Of a DNA stretch of 64,000 nt, positions 47,690 through 53,243 are shown in pieces; position 1 is the first letter of the stretch; each line of letters starts with the position of its first letter. Under the pieces are notes generated by a model, which saw nothing but the letters and a program-made list of their open reading frames with translations, was not told the DNA's origin and made no database searches. The stretch is from Shimia aestuarii (GTDB lineage Bacteria > Pseudomonadota > Alphaproteobacteria > Rhodobacterales > Rhodobacteraceae), in the NCBI RefSeq assembly GCF_022814865.1, contig NZ_JAKVRD010000007.1:124001-188000 (forward strand), read 5' to 3'. Made by a program: the position numbers and the translations under genes.

Positions 47690-48490
47690 TCAGTCGAACA
47701 TCTGATCCATTTCGACCGAAGGGTGTTCGCACCCCGCTTCGCCGACAATCTTGGCCGGGACACCGGCAACCGTCGAACAGGGCGGCACTTCTTCGAGCAC
47801 CACGGAGCCGGCGGCGATGCGGCTGCAATGGCCGACCTTGATATTTCCGAGCACTTTCGCCCCTGCCCCGATCAACACACCATCGCCAATCTTGGGATGG
47901 CGGTCTTCCTCTTCCTTGCCGGTGCCGCCAAGGGTCACAGAATGGAGCATGGAGACATTGTCGCCGACCACAGCCGTCTCGCCAATGACGATCGAATGGG
48001 CGTGGTCGATCATAATCCCTTTGCCGATGCGGGCGGCAGGGTGAATATCGATGCCAAAGATTTCCGAGGTACGCATCTGGATGAAATAGGCGAGGTCATA
48101 GCGCCCTTGTGTCCAGAGCCAGTGGCCGATGCGATAGGCCTGAACAGCCTGATAGCCCTTGAAATAGAGGATCGGCTGAAGGAGGCGGTGGCAGGCCGGG
48201 TCGCGTTCATAGATCGCCATGAGGTCGGCGCGCGCGGCTTCGGCAAGGGCCGGTTCGGCGGCAAAGGCCTCGTCCCCGATCTCGCGCAGGATCACCATCG
48301 ACATCTCGTTCGACGACAGCTTGGCCGCAAAACGGTAGCTCAGCGCGCGTTCGATGGATTTATGGTGGAGGACACAGGCATGCACGAGACCGCCCATAAT
48401 CGGCTCGTCCTGAACCGCCTGTTGCGCTTCGGTCGTGATCTGTTGCCAGACCGGGTCGATCTTGGTCAATTTCGCGCGGGTTTCAGCCAT
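47690..48490 (-). CDS. cysE: Serine O-acetyltransferase
   Basis: The 266-residue enzyme acetylates serine with acetyl-CoA, the first committed step of cysteine synthesis. The N-terminal helical domain (DPVWQQITTEAQQAVQDEP) is followed by the left-handed beta-helix of hexapeptide repeats (IHPAARIGKGIMIDHAHSIV, GDNVSMLHSVTLGGTGKE) and a C-terminal tail ending MDQMFD; the terminal hydrophobic residue is where cysteine synthase normally docks (usually Ile, here Phe-Asp). It is divergent from the DksA-like gene. Confidence 0.96.
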   Translation of the reverse strand: MAETRAKLTKIDPVWQQITTEAQQAVQDEPIMGGLVHACVLHHKSIERALSYRFAAKLSSNEMSMVILREIGDEAFAAEPALAEAARADLMAIYERDPACHRLLQPILYFKGYQAVQAYRIGHWLWTQGRYDLAYFIQMRTSEIFGIDIHPAARIGKGIMIDHAHSIVIGETAVVGDNVSMLHSVTLGGTGKEEEDRHPKIGDGVLIGAGAKVLGNIKVGHCSRIAAGSVVLEEVPPCSTVAGVPAKIVGEAGCEHPSVEMDQMFD

Positions 48491-48575: not shown

Positions 48576-48914
48576 ATGAATGAAAGCGAGAGCGCGAAGT
48601 TCCGGGCCATGATCGAGACGCGGTTGGCGCAGATCGAGGAAGAGAACCGGCTTGGCGCAGAGGGGCAATCCGTTGTGACGCTGGATCAGCAGGCGGTAGG
48701 ACGGCTCAGCCGGATGGACGCGCTCCAATCACAGGCGATGGCCAAGGCGGGTCAGGCGCGGCGCGATGGCGAGGTCAGGAAACTGCGCGCGGCACTTGAT
48801 CGGATCAAAGAGGGAGAGTTCGGCTATTGCGAGGATTGCGGCGGAGAGATCGCATTGAAGCGCCTCGCATTTGATCCCGGTGCGGCGCTCTGTATCAGCT
48901 GCGCCTCCGGCTAA
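48576..48914 (+). CDS. DksA/TraR-type zinc-finger protein
   Basis: The 112-residue protein has an N-terminal helical hairpin and a C4 zinc finger at C85, C88, C106 and C109 (CEDCGGEIALKRL, then CISCASG), the DksA/TraR layout. It is shorter than E. coli DksA (151) and lacks most of its N-terminal region, so it is closer to the short DksA-like proteins that bind RNA polymerase secondary channels. AAGGATCACGGAG precedes the ATG. Its 3' end overlaps the GTA-linked small gene by 20 bp in convergent orientation. Confidence 0.9.
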   Translation: MNESESAKFRAMIETRLAQIEEENRLGAEGQSVVTLDQQAVGRLSRMDALQSQAMAKAGQARRDGEVRKLRAALDRIKEGEFGYCEDCGGEIALKRLAFDPGAALCISCASG

Positions 48915-49191
48915 GACGCCAGTCGATGAGCGTCGAGAGGACAAGCTCGAAACACTGGCAATAGTCCTGATCTCCAAACCCCGGTTCCGGGCGCATCGGG
49001 TGCTGGCCCGCCGCCGACATGAGCGAACCATCCCCCCAGAGACAATGGCTATGCCCGAAGCGTTTGAAATATCGGTGCGCGGCGTCGGCTTCGTAGATCA
49101 GGCGCCGACAAGCCGGTTCCCGCATCATCTGCGGCAGCACGAGAAGCGCCCGCGCCGCCGCCACCACATCGCCATGCATCACCCGGCGCAT
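48895..49191 (-). CDS. Small protein downstream of the GTA host-specificity gene
   Basis: The 98-residue protein (MRRVMHGDVVAAARALLVLP) is predicted helical and rich in Arg, with a LVLSTLIDWRLSRRRS tail and two His/Cys pairs (HSHC; DYCQCF). I recall a Rhodobacterales-restricted family (annotated DUF7742) placed directly after GTA g15; this fits by position and composition but was not checked. Its ATG directly follows the stop of the fused gene (TAG-ATG), so translation is coupled. The function is unknown. Confidence 0.65.
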   Translation of the reverse strand: MRRVMHGDVVAAARALLVLPQMMREPACRRLIYEADAAHRYFKRFGHSHCLWGDGSLMSAAGQHPMRPEPGFGDQDYCQCFELVLSTLIDWRLSRRRS

Positions 49192-51666
49192 CTAGGCCTC
49201 GAGCGCGATCCGCGCGAAGGGACCGGGGCCGAACCGGGCCGAGACCTGCGCCACTGCGATCTCATAGGGGCCAGAGAGGCCATCCGTGGCCTGCGCTGCC
49301 GCATCATAGATCCAGACCGGGACGTCGAGCGTCATCTCGCGGACAACTGAGGCTCCTTGCTGCACACGCAGGAGATACTGCTCTTGCTCTTCACCCAAGG
49401 GCACCTCTGGCTGGTCCCAGCCATCGCCATCAATCCGCGTCCGGCGCACCCATGTCAGCGAGAGATCGCCATTGGCCTCTGGTACTGCGCGCAGGTGACA
49501 GGGGCGATAGGGGCGTAGCCCGTTGCCTGCGAAGGCTTCGACATGATGGCGATAGGACGGATCGTCATATCCGCGCTGTGCCGGGCCGATCCGGTAGTGC
49601 CGCGCCACATCGCGCGCAGCGCTGGCAAGGTCGATCTGTTCCACTCCGTCACCAAGACGCACCACCCACGATCCGGCAGGCCATTGCCCCGGTATAAGCG
49701 CATCGGTGCCAAGCTGGCCGCGCAAGCGGTGACGCAACCACCAAGTATCCGGCGCGATCAACTCGGCCTCGCCAAACTGCAATAGCTCCCAGTTTCCCGG
49801 CGTGCCATCGCCGATCGCAATTAGGTTGGCGCCGGATAGCATTGCCTCTTCCGGTACGCTTTCGAACGCGCCCGAGATCAATCGCACCTGAAGGGCCGGG
49901 CCGTCATCGAACCGCCCGCTTGGCGCCGCATGTAACGCGGTTTCCGTAACGCCGATTGTGGCAGGTCGGCTCAGGAGCCTGTTCAGAGAATAGTTGCCAT
50001 CGCTCACCGAGTCATAGACCGCGACGCTCCCTGGCCAAGACTTCGCCGTCGTCGCGATATGGGGAGCATGGGGCAACTCGTCGCCACGCATGAGAGGCAG
50101 GTCGAGGAAAAGCGTCTCGACAGGAGATGGTGCAGCAAAGGCACGATGCGCAGGCGTATCCTCTTCATAAGGAACCGCCTCGTAGGTTGCAGGGAGGATG
50201 CGGGCGGCCTCAATGATCTGATGAACGCCAAGTTCGACGGAATCGATGCGGAAATGCTCTGTGCCGCTTTCGCCGTCAAGCGACACCACGTCCCCTGCCC
50301 CAAGCGAAAGGCGCGAAGGCGGCAACGCAAAGCGCAGGCTTTCGCGCGCCACTCGAGCCTCGTTCAGCCAGCGTTTTGCCACGTGCCGCCCTTCCCCGCG
50401 CGTCATTGCCAGCGGTAGCTCACTTTGCGACACTCCGCGCAGGGTATCGTCGGGCATGTTGGCCTCTTCCGCGACCACGTCGAAATCGCCATCCGCTTCG
50501 ATAAAGTTGACCCGCACGCGCCCGGAAAGCTCGCTTTCAGCGGCGCGCAGACGTTCGATGCGCCCATCGAGATCCTCACTGATCGCTAGGCGCTCCTCGT
50601 CGAGCGGCGCCGCATCGTCCCCGTCGCGCATCCGGAACTGAAGGCGTCCATCGCGTTCGACCGCATCGAAGCCATAGCGCAGCATGAGCGGTTGCAGCGC
50701 GGCGCGGGCGTCGCTGATCTGGTCGATAGTATAGCCGCTCACAACGCCGCGCAGATCGCGAATGTCGTAGTGTTGGAGCCCCGCATCATCGCAGATTTCT
50801 GCCACTACCGACGCCAGCGCACGGCTTGACACACGCCCATTGAGCCAATGCCCACGAGCATAGTTCGCGCCGTCGCTCCAAAGCGCACGCGCGTTTGGAA
50901 ACGCCGGGAAGGGCCGCGTGTCCCAAGCCCATGCACAGGCTCCTCCCATATCGACCATCGGCGCACCGTAAAGCGGCGACACCGGGTTGTGCGTGGGATC
51001 ATTCCAGTAGCTTAGCATGGCGCGGTAGTATTGCTGTTGCAGGTAGTCGTCGCGCTGGCCGTTGGAGGCGTATGGCAGACCGCTCTCCGACGATTTCACA
51101 TCGACGAAACGGTTCGGCTGGTTCGTGCCCTTGTCAATCGCGGCACAGCCGATCTCATCAACCCATGCCGCATCGAATTGCGGCCCCCGAAGCGCCTCGG
51201 GCTCATGTGCCGAGAACACCTGCGCAATCGCACCGTTGGGCCAAACGAGCCGCTTGCGTCCGGCCTCCCAGACCGGTTTGCGATCCGGCGGGGAACAGGC
51301 AAGGATACCGCTCTCGCCAAAGATCATCACCTCGCGCACCTGATCGACGGTCTCTCCGACAAGCGCCACGCGCCGCGCCCGGCCTGTGTCCGTGGGGCCA
51401 TCGCCCTCGACCTGCATGCGCACCCATTCCGACCCGGCCCGCGTCTTGCCCGCGCCGCGCCCGCCAAGGATCACCCAAGTGGCCCAATCGCCTTCCGGCG
51501 CGAGTTGATGCTCGTAGGCCCAGAAATCAAACAAGAAGGGGAGAGCCAAAAGCTCTCCCTCGCTGAGGCTGTCAAGAAACGCCTCCTGCGTCTTCCGCGG
51601 CGCGGAGGCGATCCAAGCGGCGCCCGATCTGATCCCGCGCGCTGTCGAGTGCGAGTTTCGGGGCAC
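49192..51666 (-). CDS. In-frame fusion of GTA large terminase N-terminus (g2) to GTA host-specificity protein C-terminus (g15)
   Basis: Residues 1-170 (from GTG 51666; the frame is open to 51774) match the ATPase half of the Rhodobacter-type GTA terminase: LSEGELLALPFLFDFWAYE, then Walker A GGRGAGKTRAGSEW at about 66-79 and FSAHEPEALRGPQFDAAW near 152-169. At the Walker B position the frame switches to the g15 TIM-barrel/tail protein: EIGCAAIDKGTNQPN, SSESGLPYASNGQRDD, GAPMVDMGGACAWAWD, and then its tail domain to the end. The terminase nuclease domain, the g15 N-terminal half and all of g3-g14 are absent. No stop or frameshift interrupts 824 codons. Expected lengths are about 430 for terminase and 1,300 for g15. 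Confidence 0.85.
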   Translation of the reverse strand: MPRNSHSTARGIRSGAAWIASAPRKTQEAFLDSLSEGELLALPFLFDFWAYEHQLAPEGDWATWVILGGRGAGKTRAGSEWVRMQVEGDGPTDTGRARRVALVGETVDQVREVMIFGESGILACSPPDRKPVWEAGRKRLVWPNGAIAQVFSAHEPEALRGPQFDAAWVDEIGCAAIDKGTNQPNRFVDVKSSESGLPYASNGQRDDYLQQQYYRAMLSYWNDPTHNPVSPLYGAPMVDMGGACAWAWDTRPFPAFPNARALWSDGANYARGHWLNGRVSSRALASVVAEICDDAGLQHYDIRDLRGVVSGYTIDQISDARAALQPLMLRYGFDAVERDGRLQFRMRDGDDAAPLDEERLAISEDLDGRIERLRAAESELSGRVRVNFIEADGDFDVVAEEANMPDDTLRGVSQSELPLAMTRGEGRHVAKRWLNEARVARESLRFALPPSRLSLGAGDVVSLDGESGTEHFRIDSVELGVHQIIEAARILPATYEAVPYEEDTPAHRAFAAPSPVETLFLDLPLMRGDELPHAPHIATTAKSWPGSVAVYDSVSDGNYSLNRLLSRPATIGVTETALHAAPSGRFDDGPALQVRLISGAFESVPEEAMLSGANLIAIGDGTPGNWELLQFGEAELIAPDTWWLRHRLRGQLGTDALIPGQWPAGSWVVRLGDGVEQIDLASAARDVARHYRIGPAQRGYDDPSYRHHVEAFAGNGLRPYRPCHLRAVPEANGDLSLTWVRRTRIDGDGWDQPEVPLGEEQEQYLLRVQQGASVVREMTLDVPVWIYDAAAQATDGLSGPYEIAVAQVSARFGPGPFARIALEA

Positions 51667-51910
51667 CGGCCCGGCCTCTGTCTTCTGTGCGGTATGTGTC
51701 AAAGCGTGTCTCCGTATCAAGCGCCAACCGGACGAGCCCGCGCAGATCGCGTACCAAGGGCGCGCACTGGGCAATCGCCCGGCGATCGCCCCGGCGCAGA
51801 TGCGTTTGCAGCGTCCCGACCGCGTCGCTCAGCCCAAAGAGAAGCTGTCGCAACTGTGCGATTTCGCGGTCCAGTGTGGGCTCGCCCGTAGGCGGGTGGG
51901 GTGTGGTCAT
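51572..51910 (-). CDS. GTA g1 protein (small-terminase-like)
   Basis: The 112-residue protein (MTTPHPPTGEPTLDREIAQL, then a helical LFGLSDAVGTLQTHLRRGDR and ERLR-rich tail) matches the first gene of Rhodobacter-type GTA clusters, proposed to be the small terminase subunit. It overlaps the following fused frame by 95 bp. It is intact in length, unlike its neighbour. With capsid and portal genes missing it has no obvious packaging partner. Confidence 0.7.
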   Translation of the reverse strand: MTTPHPPTGEPTLDREIAQLRQLLFGLSDAVGTLQTHLRRGDRRAIAQCAPLVRDLRGLVRLALDTETRFDTYRTEDRGRAGAPKLALDSARDQIGRRLDRLRAAEDAGGVS

Positions 51911-52088: not shown

Positions 52089-53243
52089 TTACTGGTCGTT
52101 GCGTTCGGCTTCGATCCGACGCCACTTGGCCACGTTGTCGTTATGCTCGGCCAATGTTCGTGCAAAGGCATGGCCGCCCGACCCATCCGCGACAAAGAAG
52201 ATATATTCCGTCTGGTCCGGGTTGACCGCTGCCTCAAGGCTGGCTTGCCCCGGGTTGGCGATCGGCGTCGGCGGCAGACCTTCGATCACATAGGTGTTCC
52301 AAGGCGTCTCACCGCGCAGCTCGCTCTGGCGCAGGCCGCGGCCAAGAACGCCCTGCCCCCGCGTGATACCGTAGATCACCGTCGGGTCGGTCTGGAGCTT
52401 CATGCCGCGCTCAAGGCGGTTGGTAAAGACGCTCGCCACCTGACGGCGCTCTTCCGGAACCCCGGTTTCCTTCTCGATGATCGACGCAAGGATGAGCATC
52501 TCTTCGGGCGACTTAAGCACCGTATCCTCCGAGCGGCTTTCCCACGCGGCGGCGACGCGCACGGTCTGCGCCTCAGCCATCCGCGCGATGACCGACGCAC
52601 GGCTATCCCCTGCGCGCACCTCATAGCTATCGGGCGCAAGCGTGCCTTCTGCGGGCACCTCGACCTCGCCCGACAAAAGATCAATCGCCTTCAGCGCATC
52701 GACCACCTGCCAGCTCGTCACGCCCTCGGCCAACGCGATGCGATAGCGCGTATCACGGCGCTGGCGTCGATCGGTATAGACCTGCGGCACCTCTTCGGCC
52801 TCGGCCGGGTTGAACGACGCCAACTCAACAAAAGCCTTCGCCTCCGGATCCAACTCGCGCACCTGCACCACCTGACGGGTGACACCGACGCGGTAGACGA
52901 TCTCCGTGCCACAGGTGCTCGCCCCGCCACGGGTCACGATATCGGTGATCTCTTGCATCGAGGCATGCGCCGGAACAAGGAACGATCCTGCCTTCAACTG
53001 GCTGGCCTTTTCCGTGTAATCCGCACCGATGCGAAAGATCGGGCCGCTGCTGATCGCGCCGCTCTCGTCAAGCTGGCGAGAGATGCGGTCCATTGTCGAC
53101 CCCGGTTCCACCCGAAGGCAGATCGGCGCATCCAATGGCCCTTCCGCGGTGTATTGCCCCTTCCCCCAAAGCACGAGGCCCGCGAGCAGGAACAATGCCA
53201 CGATCAAAAGCATGATCGCGTTCGAGGCGATGTGTCGCCACAT
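52089..53243 (-). CDS. mltG: Endolytic murein transglycosylase MltG
   Basis: The 384-residue protein has an N-terminal membrane helix (NAIMLLIVALFLLAGLVLW), a LysM-like region and the YceG catalytic domain: SIIEKETGVPEERRQVASVF with the catalytic glutamate E257, LQTDPTVIYGITRG near 280, and TPWNTYVIEGLPPTPIANPG near 315. MltG cuts nascent glycan strands and sets their length at the inner membrane. Its ATG shares one base with the fabF stop (TAATG), so the two are co-translated. Confidence 0.96.
   Translation of the reverse strand: MWRHIASNAIMLLIVALFLLAGLVLWGKGQYTAEGPLDAPICLRVEPGSTMDRISRQLDESGAISSGPIFRIGADYTEKASQLKAGSFLVPAHASMQEITDIVTRGGASTCGTEIVYRVGVTRQVVQVRELDPEAKAFVELASFNPAEAEEVPQVYTDRRQRRDTRYRIALAEGVTSWQVVDALKAIDLLSGEVEVPAEGTLAPDSYEVRAGDSRASVIARMAEAQTVRVAAAWESRSEDTVLKSPEEMLILASIIEKETGVPEERRQVASVFTNRLERGMKLQTDPTVIYGITRGQGVLGRGLRQSELRGETPWNTYVIEGLPPTPIANPGQASLEAAVNPDQTEYIFFVADGSGGHAFARTLAEHNDNVAKWRRIEAERNDQ

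Follow-up and report, generated by a model that had tools for sequence, protein, structure and literature searches.

The same codon-exact joint between terminase and megatron genes in gene transfer agent clusters of Shimia aestuarii and other Rhodobacteraceae

The stretch analysed here (the window: 64,000 nucleotides of the Shimia aestuarii genome, contig NZ_JAKVRD010000007.1, positions 124,001 to 188,000) carries on its minus strand, as it does every feature described below, a chimeric gene (49192..51666) in which the N-terminal half of the large terminase (g2) of a gene transfer agent (GTA) is fused in frame to the C-terminal half of g15, the GTA baseplate ‘megatron’. The first 171 residues are those of g2 and the last 653 those of g15, and the frame runs through its 824 codons without an internal stop. 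The same joint, W-x-D-E|x-G-C, is found at 24 loci, each genome counted once, and the sequence comparisons give good support to the description of a codon-exact GTA deletion recurring across many lineages. Trees show the chimeras as scattered, apparently separate origins rather than one inherited chimera. Our first choice among the explanations, a tentative one, is recurrent, independent and precise loss of the GTA, brought about by short homology together with selection on the in-frame product.

The g2 half, residues 1–170 (51157..51666), holds the P-loop ATPase core without the C-terminal part of the terminase; its Walker A motif, GGRGAGKT, occupies residues 68–75 (51442..51465). The joint is a Glu codon common to g2 (WVDE) and g15 (TEIG) at 51154..51156, and the g15 half (49192..51153) comprises the end of the GTA_TIM domain, the central hub domain and the fibre-binding domain, up to the native g15 stop (domain borders as given in PMC7296036). 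Pfam Terminase_6N matches residues 66–172 (E 3e-14; profile positions 2–105 of 215), and PF03237 reaches its gathering score (53.6 bits against 22) on the N-terminal part only; the C-terminal part with the nuclease is missing, g15 sequence standing in its place from residue 172. On the other side GTA_TIM matches residues 162–257 (profile positions 204–299 of 299), a remnant of about 85 amino acids beyond the joint, followed by Phage-tail_3 (315–478) and Rcc01698_C (569–669). PHROG 4271, a tail protein, covers residues 155–822, and NCBIfam GTA_megatron NF048004 covers 162–821 (profile 639–1298 of 1299) with 795.2 bits against an equivalog cut-off of 800. An earlier note on this DNA, made from the letters of the window alone, had read here one frame fusing a terminase N-terminal half to a g15 C-terminal half, and the open frame and the matches on both sides bear that out, as does the presence of both GGRGAGKT and a Walker-B-like WVDE. 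Taking the GTG at 51666 as the start is a guess, since the stop-free frame extends over 878 codons and has a further TTG start at 51774.

Alignments of the g2 side and of the g15 side to the nearest relatives, G017 (locus L034) and G013 (L037), meet at the GAG codon 51154–51156. In both of these congeners g2, g3, g5 and g15 are all matched, on contigs that stop inside g15, and the g2 and g15 sites lie 11.2 kb apart; in all 13 intact clusters measured the distance between the two joint sites is 11.1–12.4 kb. The intact cluster of G016 (L035) has 13 non-overlapping open reading frames (ORFs) of at least 70 amino acids between g2 and g15, where the earlier note had expected some 12 genes. Each half matches its counterpart in the congeners of the window's genome, with amino acid identities of 88% (G017) and 87% (G013) for g2 and of 76% (G017) and 74% (G013) for g15, and the comparison with these sisters, which keep g2 and g15 as separate genes, supports the proposed collapse of a GTA cluster by one in-frame deletion. 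The junction had been placed at the terminase WVDE and the g15 EIG, which is right, while the exact joint is the GAG at 51156–51154, after residue 171.

Neither a complete large terminase nor a complete g15 was found in the genome itself, a draft of 70 contigs that is 99.99% complete. With the chimera as query the draft gives one match only, with no second g2 or g15; the chimera is also its sole Terminase_6N match; and Phage_capsid (PF05065) has no match at E ≤ 10, divergent capsids beyond that family not having been searched, in a search whose control gave matches in 4 of 14 genomes. Given these results, the production of GTA particles from this locus is implausible, a more guarded verdict than the impossibility claimed before.

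Contrary to what the earlier note implied, the event is not private to the strain: 24 loci have the same joint. The joint residues are W-[VALMCS]-D-E and then [ILMFYT]-G-C (read by script in 23 of the loci, and separately in the 24th, L041), and GGRGAGKT is present in 23 of the 23 chimera loci that cover the region, L093 beginning after it. Of the 394 family genomes surveyed, roughly one for each genus, at least 17 have the chimera: at least 14 full-length chimeras are among the matches listed, to which listings of subsets added G163, G361 and G079. A scan of genome contigs found seven named loci with contiguous halves, one from an uncultured Sulfitobacter and six from Ruegeria, among the latter HKCCSA071, which is G067. 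The joint is also present in a Roseobacter metagenome-assembled genome (L093), where the g15 half is interrupted by an insertion-sequence-like insert (L093:648–1885) whose transposase-like frames we take to be of the IS3 type. The ancestral flanks, mltG and cysE, are both found at 21 of the 24 loci, the window included; L161 has cysE and no match to mltG, though its stretch extends 5.6 kb upstream, and in L174 and L093 contig ends cut the locus and leave one flank visible. The frame is open at 21 of the 24 loci (that of G163 is truncated by a contig end), and the g15 halves of the other chimeras are 39–61% identical to that of the window, its own genome excluded. Outside these genomes, none of the best 80 of 570 relatives in viral contigs matched across both halves, a scan of viral contigs for the joint pattern gave six stretches, none with a GTA match, and among the matches of 385 genomes of the class at E ≤ 1e-60, a threshold that weaker ones would escape, there was no chimera beyond the family. 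A 13.6 kb metagenome contig (L256, IMGVR_UViG_3300037791_000053) has a g15 C-terminal half 78% identical to that of the window, matched from residue 171, and is probably a close relative with an intact cluster.

The earlier note had named, as what would speak against its reading, homologues of this fused architecture in many genera that lack a separate terminase; in form they are there, at 24 loci, but the trees show scattered origins. In a first tree of the g15 C-terminal half (133 rows; duplicate, partial and cut rows omitted by a fixed list) 22 chimeras need 18 changes, 14 of them forced by well-supported branches. The tree was enlarged to 158 rows by adding 30, in part the nearest relatives of an apparent chimera clade, and removing L150, L152, L153, L026 and one duplicate; here, with chimera L093 still labelled intact, 22 chimeras need 22 changes, 16 of them forced. 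In the final tree of 159 rows, with 421 residues of G079 added and L093 relabelled as a chimera, 24 chimeras need 21 changes (17 forced), against 22.6 for shuffled labels. A tree of flank genes (fabF, mltG and cysE; 50 rows, 11 with under half of the columns, L189 omitted) requires 13 changes for 22 chimeras, 10 of them forced. Addition of intact relatives dissolved an ancient chimera clade of six genera that had been considered, and separates chimeras that first seemed to be sisters (G175 with G103 and G240). The sole well-supported pair left is L039 with G079 (99% support); these two, G163, L093 and the intact Aliishimia locus (L088) form one supported group of five, within which fewer origins are possible. 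Thus a chimeric ancestor shared by all, as a single inherited family would have, is not found in the two larger g15 trees, where 22–24 chimeras need 21–22 changes, 16–17 of them forced. In the first and the enlarged g15 trees and in the flank-gene tree the window chimera joins G017 and G013 in a fully supported group. Counts of changes cannot separate loss from gain; however, in both sets compared the relationships among g3 and among g5 sequences follow those of g2 and g15, and for this reason the intact clusters look vertically inherited and loss appears the economical direction of change. On the g15 tree L082, a record titled Nocardioides marinus, falls with Leisingera, and its label is probably wrong.

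An identical joint would also be expected from common descent, had one old chimera been spread by homologous recombination or been kept as a long-lived polymorphism whose flanks were later homogenised. The sister pair L039 and G079 fits such a history, with an omega (dN/dS) at the tips of about 0.10–0.15 if the chimera was inherited, a rough value because several branch lengths are at their bound; purifying selection on this chimera would then follow. So does a difference on the g2 side of the window, where about 12 residues before the joint EPEAL stands against DPESL in G017 and G013; yet on the g15 side, within about 60 nucleotides of the joint, the window shares NRFVD with these same sisters, and the halves of the chimeras group with the g15 of their own lineages. 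In Ruegeria, windows beside the joint show no excess identity between chimeras (6 chimeras, compared with 7 intact g2 and 22 intact g15). In the 8 of 19 chimeras that have a relative within 20%, the ratio of divergence near the joint to divergence far from it is 0.73–1.53 in seven and 3.0 in L043, whose excess near the joint would suit a donor patch; in the 11 intact pairs listed it is 0.58–1.40. A donor patch or trans-species polymorphism, a candidate in its own right, therefore finds no support in the Ruegeria windows or in the pairwise test, L043 excepted. Spread of a null allele by GTA particles was also dropped, because GTA-null cells make no particles (as reported in PMC6209664). Taken together, we regard descent from one old chimera as very improbable.

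At the joint, g2 and g15 of the 13 intact clusters match exactly over 3–7 nucleotides, and each of these clusters has from 741 to 81,325 exact matches between the two genes that are as long or longer; homology therefore does not choose the joint, and a homology hot spot is unsupported. The heptamer GARCTGG is common to g2 and g15 in some lineages, but in the loci nearest to chimeras (L034, L037, L181, L182 and L183) 3–4 nucleotides are shared. The proposal of the earlier note that a GAGATCGG-type homology had driven the deletion is not supported, as the sisters' g2 has GAGCTGGCC or GAGTTGGCC where g15 has GARATCGGC, an exact match of 3–4 nucleotides. Arms that could form a hairpin around the joint were likewise rejected: 1 of 26 inverted-repeat comparisons exceeds its shuffled maximum (L186, outside the joint sites, 14 against 11), leaving 12 of the 13 clusters without them. 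Moreover, other deletions of GTA clusters, which are examples encountered and not a census, end at other places. In G005, of the same genus (L032:7249–8886), the portal up to residue 273 is in frame with g15 from residue 989, beside a full-length terminase frame; in G042 g2 up to residue 66 is in frame with g15 from 815; in G069 one frame of 977 codons joins the start of g2 to g15 from 941, with the remaining g2 in another frame; and in G139 the end of g2 meets g15 at 633 out of frame. Further deletions ending elsewhere are those of G027, G220, G100, G147, G135, G023 and G263 and, in Ruegeria, of G420, G427, G428 and G429. A neutral deletion hot spot, at which short homology and local DNA structure favour deletion and the product is not selected, would fit the tip-like distribution of the chimeras, the few decayed frames and the GARCTGG of some lineages. 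Nevertheless, the abundance of equally good repeats between the same genes, the use of the joint where nearest relatives share so little, the lack of arms and the other end points of other deletions lead us to give it little credence. Two of the Ruegeria loci, L192 (G427) and L193 (G420), have an almost full-length g15 soon after a broken g2, and no match to the capsid gene (g5) in the stretches examined. G406 has nine megatron-like matches, 38–40% identical to the query, probably from several prophages.

In the explanation that we prefer, recurrent loss with a selected product, one deletion of about 11 kb would have removed the end of g2, g3–g14 and the first half of g15, giving a GTA-null allele. 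The deletion would arise independently in separate lineages by ordinary recombination at short homology (3–7 nucleotides), and alleles with this particular joint would be over-represented among the possible deletions because their product is favoured or tolerated; that the in-frame product is favoured is probable. The frame would run open through g15 into g16, while the P-loop half stops after the Walker-B strand, so that the C-terminal part of the terminase, the portal, the capsid and the pore-forming iris domain of the megatron would all be lost. The cell would cease to produce particles, and such alleles would rise repeatedly and seldom leave long-lived descendants. If the chimera is active at all, its likeliest activity may be interference, by poisoning the assembly of related roseophages or of incoming particles; it is conceivable that such a fragment still meets the small terminase, the tail hub or the tail fibres. 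That Rhodobacterales arrived at the same chimeric protein repeatedly and independently, to the codon, through an immediate advantage of this kind (phage or GTA interference, for example) or through an enzyme that excises the interior at fixed codons, is an idea that we entertain with some doubt.

A branch codon model in Ruegeria (6 chimeras; 12 intact sequences for g15 and 7 for g2) gives the g2 half an omega of 0.044 on chimera tips and 0.072 on intact tips (likelihood ratio 2.9). For the g15 half, omega is 0.120 on inner branches, and chimera tips have 0.093 where intact tips have 0.079 (likelihood ratio 3.94, 1 degree of freedom). For g15 the difference is marginal and in the direction of slight relaxation, and that in g2 goes the opposite way; the model thus suggests no clear loss of constraint, and the chimeras would be either very young or constrained. 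Their distribution on the trees argues for short-lived alleles, and open frames and a low dN/dS fit recent and maintained alleles alike. In an AlphaFold run on the 21 chimeras (mean predicted local distance difference test, pLDDT, of 71) the hub and the fibre-binding part are folded and the joint is not. When the input is widened to 84 rows (21 chimeras, 27 g2 and 36 g15 pieces), residues 71–170 are predicted confidently (block means of 70–96 pLDDT) and residues 42–70 fall under 50; the joint is not confidently folded in either run, and a composite fold there was rejected. The models suggest a protein built of a P-loop half-domain, a loose TIM-like peripheral remnant and a baseplate hub with its fibre-binding domain. 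Foldseek with the g15 half finds 8gtc_M (E 9e-42, 34% identity) and 6tba_8A (E 6e-20, 52% identity over 240 columns).

Several observations weigh against selection on the product. Such selection should let clades of chimeras persist, yet nearly all chimeras are isolated on the tree; and codon-exact repetition, even where only GAR is shared, exceeds the precision that selection with some slack would predict. AlphaFold shows no structural need for the exact residue of the joint, residues 173–205 and 246–279 remaining under a pLDDT of 50 even with 84 rows. The slightly higher g15 omega of chimera tips has its like in the two tips with other deletions (0.092), and any tip omega includes the time before the deletion and so cannot show constraint afterwards. 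Three of the 24 frames are broken, by a stop in G336, a frameshift in G079 and the insertion-sequence-like insert in L093, though stops also occur occasionally in the g15 of chimera-free genomes (G001 and G009 among 25 genomes of the genus). Part of the other cluster deletions are out of frame. Finally, L043 differs at 9 sites in the last 45 nucleotides before the joint against 25 in the previous 378, the lone hint of a donor patch.

Two other explanations are excision at specific sites and a data artefact. In two fragmented genomes of different genera in which no g2 was detected, contig ends fall precisely on the joint's Glu codon in g15: contig C54 of G056 begins there (L354:1) and contig C14 of G182 finishes there (L355:4597). 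A mixture of intact and excised forms that branches the assembly graph would do this, or an artefact. The former would follow from site-specific or enzyme-guided excision, by a putative activity that cuts at the g2 Walker-B codon and the g15 TE codon and leaves the same empty site each time; a single population may then contain both forms, intact and excised. The exact joint at 24 of 24 loci, the scatter of the chimeras over the tree and the small change in constraint are all consistent with excision. However, the two sites share only GAR and a few bases in many lineages, the distances between them vary, and they show no long repeats or consistent arms, the single inverted repeat of L186 apart; a recombinase was not searched for. 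Nor was the g2-side contig predicted by a mixture found, as the 18 kb stretch of G182 with mltG carries no GTA match and mltG was not matched in G056. We therefore hold excision to be unlikely.

Excision of one homologous interval in silico, by assembly, curation or database handling, would equally yield codon-exact joints across genera, contigs that end at the joint, a scatter over the tree that is close to random (21 changes, where shuffled labels need 22.6) and no clear loss of constraint. Such a systematic artefact is nonetheless improbable. The joint is found in genomes of one or few contigs (G079, one contig of 4.19 Mb; G128, a contig of 3.90 Mb) and in isolates and uncultured records from different submissions; the 24 stretches counted (23 distinct loci, G067 twice and L093 not counted) contain no N; and three chimeras have suffered the further damage described above. 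A boundary fixed to the codon in g15 halves that are 39–61% identical would also be hard to produce by nucleotide-based handling. Among the IMG/VR loci compared, a near-identical intact copy (≥99%) was found for 11 of 66 named loci with intact clusters and for none of the 8 chimeras, numbers too few to decide.

The neighbouring genes agree with the ancestral GTA site, in the order mltG–[chimera]–DUF7742–cysE. An ORF of 112 amino acids (51572..51910) overlaps the start of the chimera frame; its position and weak similarity (27–45% by tblastn to the same position in L161, L032, L033, L165, L172 and L173, 6 of 28 loci searched) suggest a g1-like GTA small-terminase gene, and it has no Pfam or PHROG match. 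Downstream lie a DUF7742 gene (48895..49191; Pfam E 2e-35), whose position suggests that it corresponds to g16 of the GTA transcript, and the cysE-like host flank (47690..48490). The upstream host flank (52089..53243) is presumably mltG. In Rhodobacter capsulatus g1–g15 are followed by g16, which belongs to the GTA transcript, and then by cysE1, which is transcribed separately (PMC9552610). Inside the g2 half, at 51539–51559, a GC-rich, terminator-like hairpin is followed by a T-rich run. A hairpin of −14 kcal/mol or lower stands at the homologous place in 13 of the 20 loci in which the region was recognised (48 scanned), and in some (L166, L156) folding is kept through changes on both sides; shuffled sequences of the region also yield such sites by chance. 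It could be an internal terminator; in the Caulobacter GTA a terminator after the first gene is passed by the polymerase thanks to GafZ (PMC11150451).

How GTAs persist although the cells that produce them die is an open question, and the chimeras bear on it. Should the GTA be lost again and again by one exact route, in about 4% of the genera sampled, and should the losers seldom found lineages, the family would offer a natural experiment in which losses can be dated and counted and the cost of losing the GTA measured, with matched GTA-bearing and null relatives at hand (G000 with G017 and G013; R. arenilitoris HKCCD6430 with HKCCD9208). A codon-exact convergent fusion beyond what DNA homology provides would, if true, be unusual and suggest either that a chimeric phage protein is under selection or that an excision activity exists. 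If the joint is an artefact, a hidden error common to many public genomes would be important as well.

Full-text searches of the literature listed no paper about this terminase–megatron chimera. Incomplete clusters like that of the R. capsulatus GTA (RcGTA) are abundant in alphaproteobacteria (PMC9765227), and where that paper deals with them it treats unrecognised gene replacements and describes no fixed joint or chimera. The locus in the window resembles the RcGTA-like cluster (g1–g16) of Rhodobacterales in its chromosomal site, the small-terminase-like ORF, the start of g2, the end of g15 and the DUF7742 or g16-like gene, with halves 74–88% identical to the g2 and g15 of the nearest congeners; it differs in lacking the end of g2, g3–g14 and the first half of g15, without which the particle cannot be built. 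With the GTA large terminase (Terminase_6N) the chimera shares Walker A and the Walker-B strand, but it has nothing of what lies past Walker B, and the profile is reached only to position 105 of 215. In the chimera the terminase P-loop half takes the place of the iris domain, the adhesin-like domain and most of the peripheral (TIM) domain of the megatron (Rcc01698), which leaves it just below the NF048004 cut-off. What it retains are the central hub and fibre-binding regions, in common with the RcGTA megatron, the roseophage R4C protein (8gtc_M) and the native GTA baseplate chain (6tba_8A).

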